From positions 1-49,642 of the forward strand of contig NZ_PVWJ01000020.1 of the NCBI RefSeq assembly GCF_003003775.1: 49,642 nt of DNA, written 5' to 3'. Numbering within the stretch: position 1 is the stretch's first letter; each line of letters opens with the position of its first letter. A program made the translations under genes and the position numbers. The stretch is from Merismopedia glauca CCAP 1448/3. Its GTDB lineage: Bacteria; Cyanobacteriota; Cyanobacteriia; Cyanobacteriales; CCAP-1448. The notes under the pieces are model-generated. The model worked only from the letters and a program-made list of their open reading frames with translations. It did not search any database and was not told the origin of the DNA. Below are positions 4,060 through 35,125 of the stretch, piece after piece.

Positions 4060-4632
4060 CTAATCATCTAGGAGCAGTCTTTGGAAGCTAGCAGTATCAG
4101 GTAGGTTACAATCTACTAAAAATTGCTGATAAACTGGTTCTTCTGGCATCTGCATTTTGATATAGTCTGTTTGAGGTATTTTTCCGGCTCTTAGACCTGC
4201 ATAATCTAAATAGCTAGAAAAATCCCATTCTCCAGGTTTCTCAACTAGCCCTGCTTTGACAGGATTTAGGTGAATGTAGCGTAACAGATTAATCAGATAA
4301 TCCGTTTGTGGAACGTGAATGCTTTGAAACCGCCCTTGAAATAACACGCCAGAACGATGAAAACGCTTATTAATTGCCTTGGTGTAAGAAAGTGAGAGAG
4401 ATTTCATCGCCTCAGATAAGCTTTCATCCCTCAGATAGACCAAAAAATGGTAATGATTGGGCATTAAACAGTAAGCAACTATATCTACTGAATTACCCAT
4501 CAAATGTTTCTTCACCAACCGGAGAAAATAAAGATAGTTTTCCCGCTCAAAAAAAATTGTTTGGCGATTGTTCCCCCGATTGTAGACATGGTAAAAGTTG
4601 CCTGTTTGCAGTGGAATCCGTCTTTGCGGCAT
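4060..4632 (-). CDS. REP-associated tyrosine transposase (RAYT, Y1_Tnp family)
   Basis: A 190-residue single-strand transposase related to IS200/IS605 TnpA. It shows the family opening (YHVYNRGNN, residues 14-22), the HUH-type metal motif H60-Y61-H62 within MPNHYHFLV, and the RYIHLNPVKAG block holding the likely catalytic tyrosine (Y119). Length is normal for RAYTs. Such proteins process hairpin-forming REP sequences and are usually single-copy domesticated genes without IS ends. A perfect hairpin lies 49 bases upstream of its start codon at 4681-4713, and a related one is at 8324-8358; these are candidate substrates. A weak stem (CTAAGAA/TTCTTAG, 4636-4661) also sits just upstream of the start codon. 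Confidence 0.9.
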   Translation of the reverse strand: MPQRRIPLQTGNFYHVYNRGNNRQTIFFERENYLYFLRLVKKHLMGNSVDIVAYCLMPNHYHFLVYLRDESLSEAMKSLSLSYTKAINKRFHRSGVLFQGRFQSIHVPQTDYLINLLRYIHLNPVKAGLVEKPGEWDFSSYLDYAGLRAGKIPQTDYIKMQMPEEPVYQQFLVDCNLPDTASFQRLLLDD

Positions 4633-4680: not shown

Positions 4681-4713
4681 AGATGCCTGACTTCTTCAAG
4701 AAGTCAGGCATCT
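4681..4713. repeat. perfect 16+1+16 hairpin, REP-like, overlapping a gene end
   Basis: Two 16-base arms (4681-4696 and 4698-4713) are exact reverse complements around a single C. The core TGACTTCTT-N-AAGAAGTCA is shared with the hairpin at 8324-8358, while the outer seven base pairs differ but stay paired. The stop codon of the STAND NTPase gene (4704-4706, minus strand) lies inside it, so it could end that transcript, although no T-run follows. Its position next to the RAYT gene suggests a REP-type element. Confidence 0.8.
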
Positions 4714-7700
4714 AAGGCAACAGCACCCAAAGCTGTTAAAGTCGCCAATTGAGTCTCGCTGATACCTTGAACTTGGCTAATCTTCATTCCTTCATAGGGA
4801 TTAGGAACTCTTAAAGTCTGTTGACACTTACCAGTTTCCAAATCCCAGAATTTGATCGTTTCGTCAAAACTACCGCTAATTACTCTAGATTCAGACAAAG
4901 CTAAAACAGTATAAACTGTATTGCTATGACCGACTAGAGTTTGCTGACACTTGCCAGTTTCTAATTCCCAAACTTTAAGAGTAGAGTCTCCGCTACCACT
5001 AATAATGAGGGGTGGGTCGGTATTGGGGATAAACTTGGCTACGTGTACTGCTCCTTGGTGTCCGGTAAAAGTACGGAGACATTCTCCATTAGTGACAGAC
5101 CACAGCTTGATAGTACCGTCGCCACTCGCACTGAGCAAACACTTGCCATCTGTAGTGAAGACAACTGACCAGACAATACTAGTATGTTCTTTGAGAAATA
5201 GAGTCCGATCGCGATTATTTAAATCTTCAATGGCGATCGCCCCACCAAAATCGCTACTGGCTAGATAGTTACCATCTGGGCTAAAAGTAACGCAAGTTAG
5301 TTGGCTAGTTTGTCCGATTAAAGTTTTTTGGCATTGACCAGTAGTTACATCCCATATTTTCACAGTTTGGTCGTAGCTGCCACTAACTAGTTTTAGTCCG
5401 TCTGGACTAAAAGCAACGCTCCAAACCCAGCTTTTATGACCTAAAAGAGTCCTGTAGCTGTCTTGTGACTGGCAATCCCATAATTTGATACTATAGTCCG
5501 CACTACCGCTAGCGAGTAAAGACTGTGTGGGAGAGAAAGCTACCGACCAAATCCGGTTAGTATGTTCTCGCAGGGTTTGAATTATTTCCCCGTTAGAAAC
5601 TGACCACAATCTGATAGCTTGGTCTTCATGACCGCTAGCAAAATATTCCCCATCTGGACTCATAGCTAGGGACATGACTGCGTTACTATGACCTTTGATG
5701 GTTTTGGTACAGCGTCCGGTGGTGAGATGCCAAATTTTGGTAGCATGGTCGTCTCCACAAGTAGCGATTTCTCCAGTTTGAGGGTGATAGGCAATACTCC
5801 ACAGACGACTGGTGTGTCCGAGAAAGGTTTTCTCGCAAGTTCCAGTTTCTAAGTTCCAGAGTTTCGCGGTGCGGTCATAACTAGCACTGGCAAGTAAAGA
5901 TGGATTAAGAGGATTAAAAGCTATTCCCGTGACTGCACCTTGATGTCCGCTTAAGGTTTTGAGGCATTCTTGAGTGCGAACATCCCAAACTTTGATAGTT
6001 TTATCAAAGCTACTAGTGGCTAAGATATTGCCATCTGGGTTAAATGCCAAACACCAGATCCAGCCTGAGTGTGCTTGCCAAACTCGCACGCAAACACCTG
6101 TTTCTAGATCCCAAAAGCGGACGGTTAAGTCCTCTCCACAACTAGCTAAGGTTTTGCCATCGGGGCTGAAGGCTAAAGACCAGATTCTCTCAGTATGACC
6201 CAAAAGAATCTTAATTTCTCGATCTTGCAAATTTTGAGTAGACCACAAGCGAATGGTTAAGTCTTCGCCAGCACTAGCAAATATCTCTCCATCTGAGTGA
6301 AAAGCGATTGCATTGACGAGGTAGGTATGTTTGGTGTAAGTTTGCAAGCATTCTCCAGTCTGTACATCCCACAAGTTGACCAAGCAATCATCAGCAGCAC
6401 TAGCTAGATATCTACTATCGGGACTAAAAGCGATCCCCCACACCCAACCTTGGTGTCCTTTAAAACGTAAAATAGCTTCAAAAGTGGTCGCATTGCAAAC
6501 CTGAATTTCACCATTACTATCGCTAGTAGCTAATAGTTTGCCATCTGGACTATACGCAATGCATAATACACCGCCAAAGGTTTCGGCAAATACGGTTTGC
6601 TCGAACTGGGCACCTGTGAAATCAGTTTGCTGTAAAGTCGTATTAGCTAAATATGCTTGGCGAATCGCTAGATGAGAAAAATCAAACCCTGTTAAATCAG
6701 TTTTGAGATGGGTAAATAGATTTAGTAAATTACCACCTGCATAACCCGTCATTTCGCTGGTAGTTAGGCGTAAAGATGCCAAGATTTGAGTCAAATGTGT
6801 TTCTAGATCGGATTTTCTAGAAAAGTGGGTGGATAGGCGATTGCGCAAGCGATCGCATAATGGTTGCAAAATCAACTGAATTTGAGCTTCCCGCAAGTAA
6901 TCTGGGGTTTGAGCTTCAATTAAGGCGTGAGTTTTGAATATCTCCAGTTGATTGGTTATCAGTTCTTGCTCAACTTTTTCCAGGAATTTTTCGGTAATAT
7001 ACTCCATCACTACTGGTTGTTGAGTAATTCCCATTTCACCGGATTCAATCAGCGATCGCTCTTGTAGTGCTTCTAGCGCCTCCATTACCTCTCTTAGAGT
7101 CACTTGGGGCAGTATTTCTGCTTGCAGCTTGACTGGCATTACTCCTTCTCGATTAATCGCTAACCAGTACATAACTTGCTGTTGTAGGGGCGATAAACGG
7201 CTGAATTGCTGCTCTAATAAATCCCATAAATTACTAAAAACAGAACTGCCTTGGGCTAAAAATGCCTGAATGTTGCCACCAAATAAAGTTTTAACTGTCG
7301 TGCTAGCAATTTTCAAAGCTAATGGGTTACCGCCAAAGTAATTTACCAAAGTGCGATTTTGAGACTCTGTAACCGCTAAACCTTTATCTTTCAAGATGCG
7401 CTGACTGGCGGTAATGGAAATTCCTGGTAAAGAAAGGGCGCGCACTGGTAAGTTTACCCCTTCTCTAATCGCAAATCCCCCTGGTTTTTCTCTGCCAGTG
7501 ACTAGCAAGCAACTTGAATGAGCTTCGTCTGCTATGCGCTCTAAAAGTTGTTTATAATCCTCATATCCAGCTTTATAAGCCCCACTCCGATTACCTGAGT
7601 TCAAAATTGACTCAATATTATCCAAGACTAATAAACACCGTTTTTGGCGCAACTGAGCCATTAAAGTCTCAATTCCCATGTCTCCCGCAGCTTCAGAACC

Positions 7701-8231
7701 GACTAGAATGGGAACAATTTCTTTGAGTAATTCAGTCAAGCTGGGTGCTTGTCTCAGGGTACGCCAAATCAGACATGGAAACTGAGATTGCACCTGCTGA
7801 GATAGTTTCACCGACAAAGCAGTTTTCCCAATTCCACCAATGCCAAAAATTCCTACTACCCGACACTTTGACTCAGTTAGCCAAGTTTCCAGGGTTTGTA
7901 ATTCTGATTCTCGCCCATAAAATCTAGAAACATCGATCGCCTCACCCCAATCTGTGACTAGGGGAGGTAAATTTTGATAATGACGCAAAACTGATTGAAT
8001 ATTCCCCTTAGTGACGGGTTCTTGCAAAACTAATGACAGAGTGCGCCACAACTGGGAACCAACTTGTTTCACATAATCCGACTGGTATCCAAAATCATCA
8101 GCGATCTGTTGATAAGAATATCCTGCCCAAGTACCAAGAAATACTCGCTGCTGAATATCGCTCAGTCTTCCCCCTCCATTTTTTGAGTCGAGTAGGGTAC
8201 TAACTAGGGCGATCGCTTCTTTTTCTGTCAT
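4704..8231 (-). CDS. STAND NTPase (NB-ARC) with 14 WD40 repeats
   Basis: A 1175-residue signalling ATPase. Residues 1-85 form a helical domain with a helix-turn-helix look (GYSYQQIADDFGY), common at the N-terminus of cyanobacterial WD40-NTPases. The NB-ARC NTPase has Walker A GIGGIGKT (130-137) and Walker B LLVLDN near 200. A winged-helix/ARC region follows, then a few pentapeptide-like units (about 515-550). From about residue 555 to the end there are 14 WD40 repeats, enough for two seven-bladed propellers. Known members of this class act as ligand-sensing switches in signalling or cell death. The ligand and output are unknown. The gene is monocistronic and flanked by related hairpins. Confidence 0.9.
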   Translation of the reverse strand: MTEKEAIALVSTLLDSKNGGGRLSDIQQRVFLGTWAGYSYQQIADDFGYQSDYVKQVGSQLWRTLSLVLQEPVTKGNIQSVLRHYQNLPPLVTDWGEAIDVSRFYGRESELQTLETWLTESKCRVVGIFGIGGIGKTALSVKLSQQVQSQFPCLIWRTLRQAPSLTELLKEIVPILVGSEAAGDMGIETLMAQLRQKRCLLVLDNIESILNSGNRSGAYKAGYEDYKQLLERIADEAHSSCLLVTGREKPGGFAIREGVNLPVRALSLPGISITASQRILKDKGLAVTESQNRTLVNYFGGNPLALKIASTTVKTLFGGNIQAFLAQGSSVFSNLWDLLEQQFSRLSPLQQQVMYWLAINREGVMPVKLQAEILPQVTLREVMEALEALQERSLIESGEMGITQQPVVMEYITEKFLEKVEQELITNQLEIFKTHALIEAQTPDYLREAQIQLILQPLCDRLRNRLSTHFSRKSDLETHLTQILASLRLTTSEMTGYAGGNLLNLFTHLKTDLTGFDFSHLAIRQAYLANTTLQQTDFTGAQFEQTVFAETFGGVLCIAYSPDGKLLATSDSNGEIQVCNATTFEAILRFKGHQGWVWGIAFSPDSRYLASAADDCLVNLWDVQTGECLQTYTKHTYLVNAIAFHSDGEIFASAGEDLTIRLWSTQNLQDREIKILLGHTERIWSLAFSPDGKTLASCGEDLTVRFWDLETGVCVRVWQAHSGWIWCLAFNPDGNILATSSFDKTIKVWDVRTQECLKTLSGHQGAVTGIAFNPLNPSLLASASYDRTAKLWNLETGTCEKTFLGHTSRLWSIAYHPQTGEIATCGDDHATKIWHLTTGRCTKTIKGHSNAVMSLAMSPDGEYFASGHEDQAIRLWSVSNGEIIQTLREHTNRIWSVAFSPTQSLLASGSADYSIKLWDCQSQDSYRTLLGHKSWVWSVAFSPDGLKLVSGSYDQTVKIWDVTTGQCQKTLIGQTSQLTCVTFSPDGNYLASSDFGGAIAIEDLNNRDRTLFLKEHTSIVWSVVFTTDGKCLLSASGDGTIKLWSVTNGECLRTFTGHQGAVHVAKFIPNTDPPLIISGSGDSTLKVWELETGKCQQTLVGHSNTVYTVLALSESRVISGSFDETIKFWDLETGKCQQTLRVPNPYEGMKISQVQGISETQLATLTALGAVALDA

Positions 8232-8260
8232 TACCAGCTATTTCCACTTCTTGCTTACAT

Positions 8261-8290
8261 TGTGATCGATACTGAAGATATCCGATCACA
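8261..8290. promoter_or_regulatory. candidate operator upstream of the STAND NTPase gene
   Basis: An 8-base inverted repeat, TGTGATCG at 8261-8268 and CGATCACA at 8283-8290, is separated by 14 bases and centred about 45 bases upstream of the start codon at 8231. A symmetric site here could bind a dimeric regulator. The half-site TGTGA resembles CRP-type half-sites, but the spacing does not fit (the CRP spacer is 6), so no regulator is assigned. Confidence 0.35.
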
Positions 8291-8323
8291 ACGTTATGAG
8301 AAGTTTACAAATGTAGATCTGTG

Positions 8324-8358
8324 TAGATCTTTGACTTCTTGAAGAAGTCAAAGATCTA
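8324..8358. repeat. perfect 17+1+17 hairpin, REP-like, downstream of cupB
   Basis: Arms at 8324-8340 and 8342-8358 are exact reverse complements around a single G. They share the 19-base core TGACTTCTT-N-AAGAAGTCA with the hairpin at 4681-4713, with compensated changes in the outer arms. It begins directly next to the cupB stop codon (8359-8361, minus strand) and so could act as its transcript end. A partial direct repeat, TGTAGATCT, occurs next to it at 8312-8330. Confidence 0.8.
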
Positions 8359-9495
8359 TCAAGAATTCACCTTCACCAATTGAGAGGTAAGAAACCTATC
8401 CATCCAATATTCTAAATATTTTTGATTGGCAGCTTTTTCTGTAGGATCTTGAGTATCCAAAGGATGAGGCGCTAAACCTTTAATAGCGGCTGTAGTCACG
8501 CAAAACATCGATTTCTGGAAGGTTTGACAAATTTTGACTCGCAGATCGCTTTCTCCCCGCAAGCTGTTCTCATAGAACTTATGGAGGTAATCTGGAAGGT
8601 AATGGCGCATATCCTGCATCAACAGGGTAGGAGGAATTCCCGCACCGCCAATTGGTAAAGGATCGGCATATAATGCACCATACTGGAATCGACTTTGATC
8701 TGGAGGGATAAATTGGGCTTGGGCGTTATAAGAAACTGTACCACTGAAGGGAGTTCCTCGGAAAAAGACGGCTTCTACATAAGGTACGGCTACATCCATT
8801 AAAAATGTTAAACCTACAGAAGCAGGAATAATATCGTAGGTTTTACCTTTGATTTCGACTGAATAGGTAATTGGTTTGCTAGCTGCTGCGACTAGCCCAT
8901 CTAGGATATGCTGAACTACGTCAGGGATAGATTTAATCTCGCGGCGATCGTATTTGTCAGATAGGGTGAGGAACATCTCGCTCATTACGTCCCAAAACTG
9001 ACCTAAACAACTGTAATAAGCCTGTTGGCGGACTAGTTCGGGGAAAAAGTTTTTGAATATGCCATTTATGGCTTGTAAGAGCGGATTAGATTTAATTTTA
9101 GCAGCGATCGCTTCTTTGGCTTTTGACTCAAACTCAGGCGAATCTAGGTACGCATCTAACTGAGTTGCTCCATGCCAAAACATGGCTTTCATACAATACT
9201 CAGCATATTCAAAGTTGATGCGATCGTGCCACCAATGACGAAACAGTTTTTGTACGGAAATTTCGCCGTTGAAGTATTTGAAAAACGGGAAAAGCACTAA
9301 GAATTGATACTCGGAAATGTAAAGTAAGTTTTTATAGTAAGCCTCTAAAACAATCCCATAACTTTTGAGAATTCCTACTACTTCCAGCACGTTTTCTGGC
9401 GTATCAACTAATAAGGCTTCTCCTCCCTGCAAGCGGTTGATATACTCTTGGAGGGGATGAATTCTAACTTTGGGAGTAGTTTTAATAGTAGTCAT
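8359..9495 (-). CDS. cupB: CO2 hydration protein CupB (ChpX)
   Basis: A 378-residue CO2-hydration subunit of an NDH-1MS-type complex. It binds NdhD/NdhF variants and converts CO2 to bicarbonate on the cytoplasmic side, driven by electron flow. The family is recognised from its N-terminal region (HPLQEYINRLQGGEALL), the FRHWWHDRINFEYAEYC block and the C-terminal EYWMDRF. Its length fits CupB (about 380) better than CupA (about 440), and no cupS follows. Two ATGs are possible: 9495 is preferred because AAGGA lies about 5 bases upstream, whereas the ATG at 9501 directly abuts that site. It is the last gene of the ndhF4-ndhD4-cupB operon, with a hairpin at its stop codon. Confidence 0.9.
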   Translation of the reverse strand: MTTIKTTPKVRIHPLQEYINRLQGGEALLVDTPENVLEVVGILKSYGIVLEAYYKNLLYISEYQFLVLFPFFKYFNGEISVQKLFRHWWHDRINFEYAEYCMKAMFWHGATQLDAYLDSPEFESKAKEAIAAKIKSNPLLQAINGIFKNFFPELVRQQAYYSCLGQFWDVMSEMFLTLSDKYDRREIKSIPDVVQHILDGLVAAASKPITYSVEIKGKTYDIIPASVGLTFLMDVAVPYVEAVFFRGTPFSGTVSYNAQAQFIPPDQSRFQYGALYADPLPIGGAGIPPTLLMQDMRHYLPDYLHKFYENSLRGESDLRVKICQTFQKSMFCVTTAAIKGLAPHPLDTQDPTEKAANQKYLEYWMDRFLTSQLVKVNS

Positions 9496-9565
9496 GACCA
9501 TCCTTAATCGTCATTTGTCGCTAAAACCTCAATTATTCGGCATTTAATTCGGTTTAAATCCTTTT

Positions 9566-21642: not shown

Positions 21643-22989
21643 GTGAGATATTATCGTTTTTTTTGCAGTTGCATTTTATCTATACTATTATTAGTTGGAT
21701 ATATGCCATCTGCCTGGGCATTTTGTGGATTTTATGTATCTAAAGCTGACAGTAAGTTATATAATCAAGCCTCACAGGTAGTCATTGCCAGAGATGGCGA
21801 TCGCACCATTTTAACGATGGCAAATGATTACCAAGGAGACGTGAAAGATTTTGCGATCGTAGTCCCTGTTCCTGTCAAAATAGAGAAGGAACAAGTTAAG
21901 ATTGGCGATCCTAAAGTTATTCAACACTTGGATGCATTTAGCGCGCCTAGATTAGTCGAATATTTCGACTCAGATCCTTGCTTAGAAAGAGTACGTTTAA
22001 ACTTCAATATAGGCTTGACTGGTGCAGATAGCCTTGACAATCAATTAAGATATCGTGCTGAAAAAAAAGATAATTTAGGAGTAACAATAGAAGCCAAATT
22101 CAACGTCGGAGAATACGAAATATTAGTCCTCAGCGCCAAACAATCCGACGGTTTAGAAACCTGGCTCAAACAAAACGGCTACAAACTTCCCAGAGGTGCA
22201 AGTCAACTATTGCAACCTTACATCAAACAAAAGATGAAATTCTTTGTCGCTAAAGTCAACCTCAAAGAATTTGATAAATCAGGTTCGGAGTTTTTACGTC
22301 CTTTAATGATAGCCTACTCTTCACCTAAGTTCATGTTACCAATTCGCTTAGGGATGATGAATTCAACTAACGAACAAGACTTAATTGTTTACGTACTTTC
22401 TCCCAAAGGACAAGCCGAAGTCACTAACTATCGTACAGTTAAAGTTCCTTCTGGAGACGAAATTCCCGTCTATGTAAAAAATGAGTTTGGCGAGTTCTAT
22501 AAATCCATGTTCCAAACTTCTTATAACAAAGAAGATCGGAAAGTAGCTTTCTTAGAATATGCTTGGAATATGAGTAACTGCGATCCTTGTTCAGCAGAAC
22601 CTTTAAATGAAGAAGAACTCAAAAAAGCTGGTGTATTTTGGTTAGAGTCAAATTTAAATCGCGGAATTCCTTTTTCAAATAAAGTCTTCATCACTCGACT
22701 TCATATTAGATATAGTCGAGATAAATTCCCAGAAGATCTGATGTTTCAAGAAACAGCAAATCAAGAGCACTTTCAAGGTAGATATGTGTTGCGTCATGCT
22801 TATACTGGAGAAACTAAATGTGCAGCCGGAAGAGAGTATAGAAGAGGTTTGAAACAGAGATTTGAACGAGAAGCACAGACTTTAGCTAAGTTGACTGGTT
22901 GGAATATTAAAGATATTCGCAAAGAAATGGATTTTGCAGAAACTGTCGGTACAACCGAACCATTTTGGCGAGACATTTGGGGACAATAA
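21643..22989 (+). CDS. DUF2330 exported protein, copy 1
   Basis: A 448-residue exported protein of the DUF2330 family, whose function is unknown. The start is taken at GTG 21643, because GAGGAG ends eight bases before it and the signal peptide then aligns in length with copy 2; the GTG at 21634 overlaps that ribosome site. After a signal peptide ending AWA, the mature protein begins FCGFYVSKADSKLYN. Conserved cysteines include the CDPC motif and others near the C-terminus. Residues about 117-146 form a linker unlike that of copy 2, while the following 160 codons are almost identical in nucleotide sequence. Lies 13 bases after the RnfD-like gene. Confidence 0.85.
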   Translation: MRYYRFFCSCILSILLLVGYMPSAWAFCGFYVSKADSKLYNQASQVVIARDGDRTILTMANDYQGDVKDFAIVVPVPVKIEKEQVKIGDPKVIQHLDAFSAPRLVEYFDSDPCLERVRLNFNIGLTGADSLDNQLRYRAEKKDNLGVTIEAKFNVGEYEILVLSAKQSDGLETWLKQNGYKLPRGASQLLQPYIKQKMKFFVAKVNLKEFDKSGSEFLRPLMIAYSSPKFMLPIRLGMMNSTNEQDLIVYVLSPKGQAEVTNYRTVKVPSGDEIPVYVKNEFGEFYKSMFQTSYNKEDRKVAFLEYAWNMSNCDPCSAEPLNEEELKKAGVFWLESNLNRGIPFSNKVFITRLHIRYSRDKFPEDLMFQETANQEHFQGRYVLRHAYTGETKCAAGREYRRGLKQRFEREAQTLAKLTGWNIKDIRKEMDFAETVGTTEPFWRDIWGQ

Positions 22990-23052: not shown

Positions 23053-24375
23053 ATGAAATACTGGCGCATTTTAAGTAGTTTCTTGTTAGCTATTACGATT
23101 TGTTTTAGCAACATGGGAAACGCTTGGGCATTTTGTGGATTTTATGTATCTAAAGCTGACAGTAAGTTATATAATCAAGCATCACAGGTAGTAATTGCAA
23201 GGGATGGCGATCGCACCATCTTAACTATGGCAAATGATTACCAAGGAGACGTAAAAGATTTTGCCATAGTTGTACCAGTTCCTGTCAAAATAGAAAAGGA
23301 ACAAGTTAAGATTGGCGATCCTAAAGTTATTGAACGTTTGGATGCATTTAGCGCACCTAGATTAGTCGAATATTTCGATTCTAATCCTTGCGAACCACAA
23401 GTATTCTACGATCGCCTACCAGCTTCTGCACCCCTTCCAGCACCAGCACCTATTGCTAGGGAAAGAGAGGGTGCTTTAGGAGTAACAATAGAAGCCAAAT
23501 TCAACGTTGGAGAATACGAAATATTAGTCCTCAGCGCCAAACAATCCGACGGTTTAGAAACCTGGCTCAAACAAAACGGCTACAAACTTCCCAGAGGTGC
23601 AAGTCAACTATTGCAACCTTACATCAAACAAAAGATGAAATTCTTTGTCGCTAAAGTCAACCTCAAAGAATTTGATAAATCTGGCTCGGAGTTTTTACGT
23701 CCTTTAATGATAGCCTACTCTTCACCTAAGTTCATGTTACCAATTCGCTTAGGGATGATGAATTCAACTAACGAACAAGACTTAATTGTTTACGTACTTT
23801 CTCCCAAAGGACAAGCTGAAGTCACTAACTATCGCACAGTTAAAGTTCCTTCTGGAGACGAAATCCCAGTCTATGTAAAAAATGAGTTTGGTGAGTTCTA
23901 TAAATCCATGTTCCAAACTTCTTATAACAAAGAAGATAAGAAAGTGGCATTCCTAGAATATGCTTGGAATATGAGTAACTGCGATCCTTGTTCAGCAGAA
24001 CCTTTAAATGAGGAAGAACTTAAAAAGGCTGGTGTATTTTGGTTGAAGCCAGATGCTTCGAGTCAAGTATTTATTTCTCGGATTCATGTACGTTACACTC
24101 GCGATAAGTTTCCCGAAGATCTGATGTTTCAAGAGACATCAAATCAAGAGTCTTTTCAAGGTAGATATGTGTTGCGTCATGCGTATACGGGAGAAACTAA
24201 TTGCTCAGCCGGAAGAGAGTATAGAAGAGGTTTGAAACAGAGATTTGAACGGGAAGCGCAGACTTTAGCTAAGTTGACTGGTTGGAATATTAGAGATATT
24301 CGGAAAAAGTTAGATTTAGCTGAAGAAGCCTCTCCTCCTAGCGATCCTTTCTGGAAGAATATTTGGGGGGAATAA
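23053..24375 (+). CDS. DUF2330 exported protein, copy 2
   Basis: A 440-residue paralogue of the gene just upstream. A clear ribosome site GGAGG precedes the ATG by about nine bases. Signal peptide to about residue 26 (NAWA), then the same FCGFYVSKADSK start, the same CDPC motif and a similar C-terminus. The only strongly different parts are a linker at about residues 115-143, here proline/alanine-rich (PASAPLPAPAPIA), and a short region near residue 340. The family is unassigned biochemically. Location outside the cytoplasmic membrane is inferred from the signal peptide, and conserved cysteines suggest disulfides or metal binding. Confidence 0.85.
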   Translation: MKYWRILSSFLLAITICFSNMGNAWAFCGFYVSKADSKLYNQASQVVIARDGDRTILTMANDYQGDVKDFAIVVPVPVKIEKEQVKIGDPKVIERLDAFSAPRLVEYFDSNPCEPQVFYDRLPASAPLPAPAPIAREREGALGVTIEAKFNVGEYEILVLSAKQSDGLETWLKQNGYKLPRGASQLLQPYIKQKMKFFVAKVNLKEFDKSGSEFLRPLMIAYSSPKFMLPIRLGMMNSTNEQDLIVYVLSPKGQAEVTNYRTVKVPSGDEIPVYVKNEFGEFYKSMFQTSYNKEDKKVAFLEYAWNMSNCDPCSAEPLNEEELKKAGVFWLKPDASSQVFISRIHVRYTRDKFPEDLMFQETSNQESFQGRYVLRHAYTGETNCSAGREYRRGLKQRFEREAQTLAKLTGWNIRDIRKKLDLAEEASPPSDPFWKNIWGE

Positions 24376-33664: not shown

Positions 33665-35125
33665 ATGCTGCTAAGTGCAGAAATGTTACTATATTTCCAA
33701 CGTTGTCATCGTCGCACGTTTTTGGATACCTATGGCGATCTGACGCAAAAAGACCCTCTCTCTGATTTTCACCTCAGATTGCAGCAGGAGAGATTCGCTC
33801 ATCAGCAAGCGGTTTTACAAGCACAAATCGAGCAAGGTGCTACTCTTCATCAAAAGCCAGTATATCCCAGTCAAGATTGGCAAGCTGGTGCCGAAGCTAC
33901 CCAAGAAATGATGCGTCAGGGAGTGGAACGAATTTATCGGGGAGTGTTGACAGCAGAGGTTGACAGTGACGGAAAATTGGTGACTTTGGTGAGTGCGCCA
34001 GATTTACTAGTTAAACAGCCAGGAAAGTCTTATTTTGGAGATTGGGTATACGTACCAATCGATATTCACCTCGGTAAGCGCCCTAAGTTAGAATATCAAA
34101 TCGTAGCGGCTTATCATGCCTATTTACTTAGCTTTGTGCAAGGAATATCTAGCGAGAAAGCTTGGTTAATTTTACGGGGGAAGGGATGGTATTTAGTAAA
34201 TTTAGAGCGATCGCTTCCCCAAATGCAAGAAGCCTTGCAAGCTAGTTTGGCAATGTTGGTGCATGGGCGAGAACCGGAAGTATTCATTTCTCGTCAAATT
34301 TGTAATTTATGTCCTTGGTTCAGCAGTTGTTATCAAATTGCTAAGTCTCAAGAACATCTTTCGCTAATACCTGGTGTTTCTCCCACTCGCTACCAATCTT
34401 TACAAAAATTGGGGTTAAATACAGCAGAAGCGATCGCCAATAGCGATCCGGCTCAGTTAGCATTAGAGATAGGGTTAGATACGGCTCAACAACTAGTCAA
34501 CCAGGCGAAATCTCTGACTAATAACTGTGCTATTCCTCGTCAACCGCATTTTCCAGCTAATTATTTACCAAACAGTCCTATAGAAATCTATTTTGATATT
34601 GAAGCAGAACCCGATCTCAATTTAGATTATTTGTTAGGAGTGTTAGTCGTCAATCAGGAAGAGGAAACACAAACATTTCACCCCTTTTTCGCCGAAAAAC
34701 CCACAGATGAAGGCTCAATCTGGGAGCAATTTATTGATTTAGTTTCCTCTTACCCCAAGGCTCCAATTTTTCACTTCTCACCTTATGAAGCAGAAACAGT
34801 AAAAAGACTAGCCAAGCTATATCAGACTCCCAAAGGGCAAACCAGAGCTTTATTAGCTAGATTTGTGGATTTACACAAGCGATTACATTCTGCTGTCACC
34901 TTACCCGTTGAGAGTTACTCTCTCAAATCTATTGCTCGCTGGATGGGTTTTCATTGGCGCTACCCTCAAGCTAATGGTTCCCTGTGCATCTGTTGGTACA
35001 ACAACTGGTTAGAAACTGGTTCTAGCTCTTGGCTCGACTTAATTGTCGCCTACAACGAAGATGATTGCCTAGCTACTTACCAAATTAAAGAGTGGTTAGC
35101 AGGATTCTTGCAGGAAACTATGTAG
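33665..35125 (+). CDS. TM0106-family RecB-like nuclease with RNase H-like exonuclease domain
   Basis: A 486-residue nuclease. The N-terminal PD-(D/E)xK RecB/Cas4-like domain has one N-terminal cysteine (C14) and three later ones (C213, C216, C222), the layout that binds a 4Fe-4S cluster in Cas4/AddB-type nucleases. A helix-hairpin-helix (LIPGVSPTRYQSLQKLGL) follows. The C-terminal RNase H-like 3'-5' exonuclease domain has D-x-E in YFDIEAEP and the late acidic motif YNEDDCLATY. A DNA repair or processing role is likely. It is a single gene on the plus strand, not next to cas genes or other defence genes. Confidence 0.88.
   Translation: MLLSAEMLLYFQRCHRRTFLDTYGDLTQKDPLSDFHLRLQQERFAHQQAVLQAQIEQGATLHQKPVYPSQDWQAGAEATQEMMRQGVERIYRGVLTAEVDSDGKLVTLVSAPDLLVKQPGKSYFGDWVYVPIDIHLGKRPKLEYQIVAAYHAYLLSFVQGISSEKAWLILRGKGWYLVNLERSLPQMQEALQASLAMLVHGREPEVFISRQICNLCPWFSSCYQIAKSQEHLSLIPGVSPTRYQSLQKLGLNTAEAIANSDPAQLALEIGLDTAQQLVNQAKSLTNNCAIPRQPHFPANYLPNSPIEIYFDIEAEPDLNLDYLLGVLVVNQEEETQTFHPFFAEKPTDEGSIWEQFIDLVSSYPKAPIFHFSPYEAETVKRLAKLYQTPKGQTRALLARFVDLHKRLHSAVTLPVESYSLKSIARWMGFHWRYPQANGSLCICWYNNWLETGSSSWLDLIVAYNEDDCLATYQIKEWLAGFLQETM

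Follow-up and report, generated by a model that had tools for sequence, protein, structure and literature searches.

Two perfect hairpins lie on either side of a gene for a STAND-type protein, the first of them next to a RAYT gene, which raises the question of what these hairpins are and which of their neighbours they belong to. Both lie in a 49,642-nucleotide stretch of Merismopedia glauca DNA (the window). The first hairpin, h1 (AGATGCCTGACTTCTTCAAGAAGTCAGGCATCT; 4681–4713, no strand assigned), has two 16-nt arms around a single loop base, and the second, h2 (TAGATCTTTGACTTCTTGAAGAAGTCAAAGATCTA; 8324–8358, likewise unstranded), has two 17-nt arms around a single base. Every arm position is paired in each, so an earlier note on this DNA had described and placed both correctly. 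No other perfect hairpin in the 49.6 kb window has arms of this length and a loop of this size, and five shuffled versions of the window contained none. Folding energies of the hairpins range from -24.8 to -29.9 kcal/mol. The 19 bases that the note had the two share are indeed common to both, as TGACTTCTT-C-AAGAAGTCA versus TGACTTCTT-G-AAGAAGTCA. These 19-nt cores are mutual reverse complements and therefore identical on opposite strands. The core GACTTCTTNAAGAAGTC lies at 4689–4705 in h1 and at 8333–8349 in h2, neither assigned a strand. The differences in the outer arms, also as claimed, are compensated. Elsewhere in the window, the same 13-nt inverted repeat (ATGAAATTCTTTG / CAAAGAATTTGAT) is found at 22234–22275 and 23635–23676, 1.4 kb apart.

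The RAYT that had been placed beyond the first hairpin lies at 4060–4632 on the minus strand, with h1 49 nt upstream of its start codon. It codes for 190 aa, is full length and has all catalytic residues, including the HUH motif NHYH and a catalytic tyrosine in YIHLNP; both HUH and tyrosine are invariant among 27 aligned relatives. The protein scores 81.9 bits against NCBIfam NF047646 (cut-off 80), Pfam detects Y1_Tnp alone across its length, and it resembles the solved E. coli TnpAREP structure (PDB 4er8) at E=3e-6. On profile, catalytic motifs and similarity to 4er8, we identify the predicted product of this gene as a RAYT, that is, a TnpAREP-type HUH transposase. It has a hairpin on the upstream side alone; neither a hairpin nor any recognisable relic of one was found downstream.

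The STAND gene (4704–8231, minus strand; 1175 aa, with WD40 repeats) ends in or at h1, its last codons reading ..LDA stop and its stop codon (4704–4706) lying inside the hairpin. Its single PADLOC match, HEAT-ARM_XIII, falls within the WD40 part and was judged uninformative. At the other end, h2 follows the stop codon of chpX (8359–9501, minus strand) with no gap. Both stop codons had been placed correctly in the earlier note, but the gene it named cupB is ChpX/Y, a CO2 hydration protein gene and the terminal gene of an ndhF-ndhD-chpX cluster. The STAND gene is a passenger and chpX is the neighbour of h2; both are outside the element.

A search of the 5.2 Mb genome for the core palindrome, as had been proposed, returned four exact copies and none of the reversed control. 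A covariance model extended these to about 14 family copies (E 4e-13 to 9e-3), a lower bound, as part of the first-look candidates was scored. One copy, h1, is beside the RAYT, where the chance expectation for a copy so near is 0.0004. The repeats are short palindromes, dispersed and mostly non-coding (12/14 outside reading frames). Several are decayed (on contigs C57, C31 and C8). The copies on C24 and C95, on the other hand, are identical across the full hairpin and differ from h1 at two positions and from h2 at four, compared with six differences between h1 and h2. In the 13 alignable copies, two-sided changes occur in 6 of 15 pairs and 95.9% of cells pair, giving a covariation score of 0.379 against 0.163 for shuffled and at most 0.128 for slid alignments. 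Searches of Rfam gave no match to the hairpin, and literature searches with the hairpin strings (in which figures are not text-searchable) gave nothing or apparently unrelated papers only. The idea that h1 and h2 are chance palindromes or a sequencing artefact has next to no probability: it is already refuted by the repeat family, its covariation and the lack of such hairpins in shuffled sequence, and the reversed core matched in 2 of 196 genomes, once in each.

We gathered 80 loci that encode relatives of this RAYT; they are cyanobacterial save for one in a metagenome bin labelled Anaerolineae. Close orthologues, in Nostoc, Tolypothrix, Komarekiella, Calothrix, Chamaesiphon and others, bear AGATCCCCGACTTCTTNAAGAAGTCGGGGATCT 25–80 nt upstream and mostly also 2–35 nt downstream. 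RAYTs farther out in the same clade have other hairpins, built alike (AGATCTGCGACTTCTT, AGATCCCAGGGTTCTT, AGAAACCCGGTTTCTT, AGAAACCCGCTTTCTT, AGACCTCCGAGGTTTT, AGGGACCAGGTGCCTT and others). No typed hairpin was found at 28 of the 80 loci; where both sides could be typed, the type was the same in 36/38. When oriented by the RAYT, flanking hairpins tend to one polarity (29 asymmetric forward, 5 reverse). Mapped onto a maximum-likelihood tree of the RAYTs, the hairpins, of eight types, require seven changes of type, the minimum possible, while 200 label shuffles required at least 16.

The same pattern is seen at the level of genomes. The core is present in 46/196 genomes of the order overall but in all seven with a RAYT at least 74% identical (Fisher 2.7e-5, a value that ignores genome relatedness). 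A second core, type B (CCGGTTTCTTNAAGAAACCGG), numbers 0, 0, 0, 1, 0, 0 and 0 copies in those seven genomes and is present in 11/19 genomes with a 50–60% identical RAYT; several of the remaining genomes in this range have further hairpin variants adjoining the RAYT. Together, the bracketing of RAYTs, the agreement of hairpin type with the RAYT tree and the core in 7/7 close-RAYT genomes make the REP-type, RAYT-linked reading well supported. By sequence comparison, then, the hairpins are copies of a repeat family tied to this RAYT lineage across cyanobacteria.

The association is looser in the other direction. No close RAYT accompanies the core in 39 of the 46 core-bearing genomes, which means that copies persist or spread without that enzyme. 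In core-rich genomes of this kind, strong NF047646 RAYTs are flanked by other hairpins, save for one copy at locus L186. Either the copies spread first and the RAYT was then lost, or another enzyme serves them. Three genomes (G103, G120 and G150) hold 262–358 exact type-B cores (CCGGTTTCTTNAAGAAACCGG); a RAYT, at most 35% identical, is present in one of them.

Our main reading, to which we give a probability of about 0.85, is that the RAYT at 4060–4632 has a cognate small REP-like hairpin family, of which h1 and h2 are two dispersed members. The 33-nt hairpin (AGA...TCT, with a 15–16 bp stem and a 1–3 nt loop) would form in single-stranded DNA, for example on the lagging-strand template, where single-stranded AGATCCCTGACTTCTTGAAGAAGTCAGGGATCT is the putative substrate bound by the HUH tyrosine transposase. 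The RAYT would then cut at the hairpin foot and join the element elsewhere. The copies that survive would mostly be those immediately beyond the end of a gene, which can provide its stop codon and give its mRNA a structured 3' end. Mobility and RAYT cleavage of this family are inferred from work in E. coli and Stenotrophomonas (PMC8266576). A search for insertion polymorphism among the RAYT loci turned up only decayed or repeated hairpins and no clean empty site. A comparison of genome G189 with about 1.25 Mb of G123 for clean excision or insertion gave one absent allele, with diverged flanks.

The feet of the hairpins depart from the canonical form. GTAG is found at the foot of only 1/53 RAYT-flanking hairpins, and for this reason we file the family as a REP-like variant and not as canonical REPs. 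The earlier proposal of REP-type elements processed by this RAYT holds for the association of family and lineage (bracketing, tree and genomes); processing itself is an extrapolation. Direct partial duplications of the foot occur at 11/306 flanks (inverted, 1; expected from shuffling, 0.35) and may be a trace of cutting or slippage there. One is at h2, where GTAGATCTGT lies beside GTAGATCTTT (8313–8322, plus strand). Direct duplications of 6 nt or longer just outside the hairpin were seen at 8313–8332 of the window and at loci L020, L033, L034, L039, L040, L050, L075 and L138.

How the copies came to lie where they do can be explained in other ways. The pair could delimit a composite unit by which the STAND gene was, or could be, moved, since both belong to one family and bracket that gene, which is at this site in none of the relatives examined. 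However, that absence says little, because none of the window's downstream genes adjoins chpX in any of 20 relatives and there is no conserved downstream neighbour. Furthermore, the position of h1 assigns it to the RAYT, as it corresponds to that of the upstream hairpin in orthologous RAYTs; the copies on C24 and C95 are nearer to h1 than h2 is, and at least as near to h2 as h1 is; two of 14 randomly placed copies fall within 3.64 kb of each other in 13% of simulations; and related STAND-WD40 genes end alike at the C-terminus without such a hairpin. The suggestion in the earlier note that the pair could have mobilised, or could mobilise, the 3.5 kb between them is thus very improbable, and nothing positive speaks for mobilisation of the h1-STAND-h2 block. 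Most likely, h1 is the upstream hairpin of the RAYT and h2 an independent copy that lies where chpX ends. It is considerably easier to imagine that the RAYT, since become inactive in this genome, spread the copies long ago and left them as relics, although we consider this somewhat less probable than not. The low copy number, the decayed copies, the perfect core in only four of them and the RAYT without a downstream hairpin would all fit. A full-length RAYT with every catalytic residue present and the identity of the C24 and C95 copies would not.

A third possibility is that the hairpins, whatever their origin, are kept as transcript ends, acting as terminators or as 3' structures that stabilise mRNA. 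A gene 3' end is contained in, or within 15 nt of, 8/14 copies, compared with a background of 21% outside reading frames (p=0.003). In a Chamaesiphon, of the copies outside reading frames, 56% have a 3' end no more than 40 nt away (28% expected) and 8% are near 5' ends (26% expected). Three hairpins supply the stop codon itself, to the STAND gene (..ALDA), to miaB on C52 (..GVDP) and to a protein gene on C24 (..SPDP); the conserved part of both MiaB and the STAND protein stops short of the hairpin. This preference, the stable folding and the preservation of the stem by compensatory changes argue for such a role, and with their preference for 3' ends the copies may protect mRNA ends. However, a U tract after the stem, as expected of an intrinsic terminator, is absent at both h1 and h2, and chpX lacks the hairpin in most relatives. 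Some copies are between divergent genes. In a Chamaesiphon, one (L283 1492–1525; G189:C124) is read in frame as part of the linker between the two domains of a fusion protein; there the repeat codes for YPRLLQEVGD and the copy adds about 15 residues that are missing in a relative with roughly 78% DNA identity. Finally, it is the stem sequence, beyond the stem alone, that tracks the RAYT lineage. We therefore regard retention as transcript ends, which the earlier note had offered as an alternative, as rather unlikely: the 3'-end preference bears it out and the missing U tract does not.

The family of RAYT-linked hairpins is close to, but distinct from, known systems. In the REPtrons of E. coli, Stenotrophomonas and Pseudomonas, tnpAREP (RAYT) is bracketed by REP elements (PMC8266576, PMC3116915). 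Here too, an HUH/Y1 gene is flanked by hairpins that are also dispersed, mostly outside genes; in most orthologues the bracketing is on both sides, whereas in the window it is on the upstream side only. As in group 3, the palindromes are perfect, and hairpin and enzyme co-evolve. Unlike in REPtrons, the foot has no GTAG and its AGA...TCT is itself paired, stems are 15–16 bp, flanking hairpins mostly have the same polarity and copies are few (1–55 exact cores per genome where present). The cyanobacterial GTAG-12, -15 and -16 families are likewise small palindromic repeats, set apart from this one by the terminal GTAG of their definition in Di Nocera 2013 (PMC3733652). Similarities to IS200/IS605 are the HUH Y1 transposase, a hairpin at either end and ends in one polarity; the differences are YIHLNP in place of a Y---Q motif, low-copy RAYT genes and no tnpB next to the window RAYT. 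Elhai is also said to have described, in 2008, small dispersed repeats of Nostoc that are very small mobile cyanobacterial repeats.

The enzyme itself has the motifs of TnpAY1 subclass 2.1 (NH[YF]H, FQ, Y[IV]HLNP and an SS tail), all four of which are present in 65/76 near-full-length relatives. Subclass 2.1 (Bertels group 1) is published as having no REP-like sequences near its genes, unlike the RAYT clade studied here, and as having C-terminal HTH domains (PMC6006769). No HTH-like extension was detected at the C-terminus of the window RAYT (Pfam, 190 aa: Y1_Tnp only) so we do not claim membership of subclass 2.1 for it. Nor does it have the motifs of the cyanobacterial subclass 2.8 (NHYH / W[YH] / YIHYNP), having FQ and YIHLNP instead.

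What is new is the combination of GTAG-free hairpins (GTAG in 1/53) with a RAYT whose motifs are those of a subclass described in print as lacking REPs. We think it somewhat probable that a cyanobacterial RAYT clade with these motifs bears a whole set of perfect hairpins with an AGA foot and no GTAG, and that their stem sequence has changed over about seven times on the RAYT tree. If true, this would provide a natural series for how a RAYT reads its hairpin. Canonical REPs are recognised via GTAG and hairpin, and one large RAYT group has been reported without REPs. If the hairpins are substrates of such an enzyme, GTAG would be dispensable, the REP-less label would be partly a sampling matter, and related, matched pairs of enzyme and hairpin could be used to map recognition residues. 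Copies that end genes with their own stop codons are also an example of how repeats of this kind reshape gene ends.

Other repeats were seen in the same genome (G000). A second RAYT (C44, near 34131–34583; L099, L100) has GTAGGGGCGCAATGCATTGCGCCCCTAC on either side and is a canonical GTAG-type system alongside the GTAG-free one. An imperfect palindrome, GACTTATGCAAGAGGTC, has about a dozen or more copies on many contigs and is likely unrelated to the h1/h2 repeat. Several copies of another repeat (L007, L009, L011, L013 and L014) end in CCCCGACTTCTGCAAGAAGTC, adjoin a conserved stretch, GTAGGCGATGCCGGAACCACTTCCGGCAT, and often lie close to the end of a contig; this repeat looks like the end of an insertion sequence or MITE.
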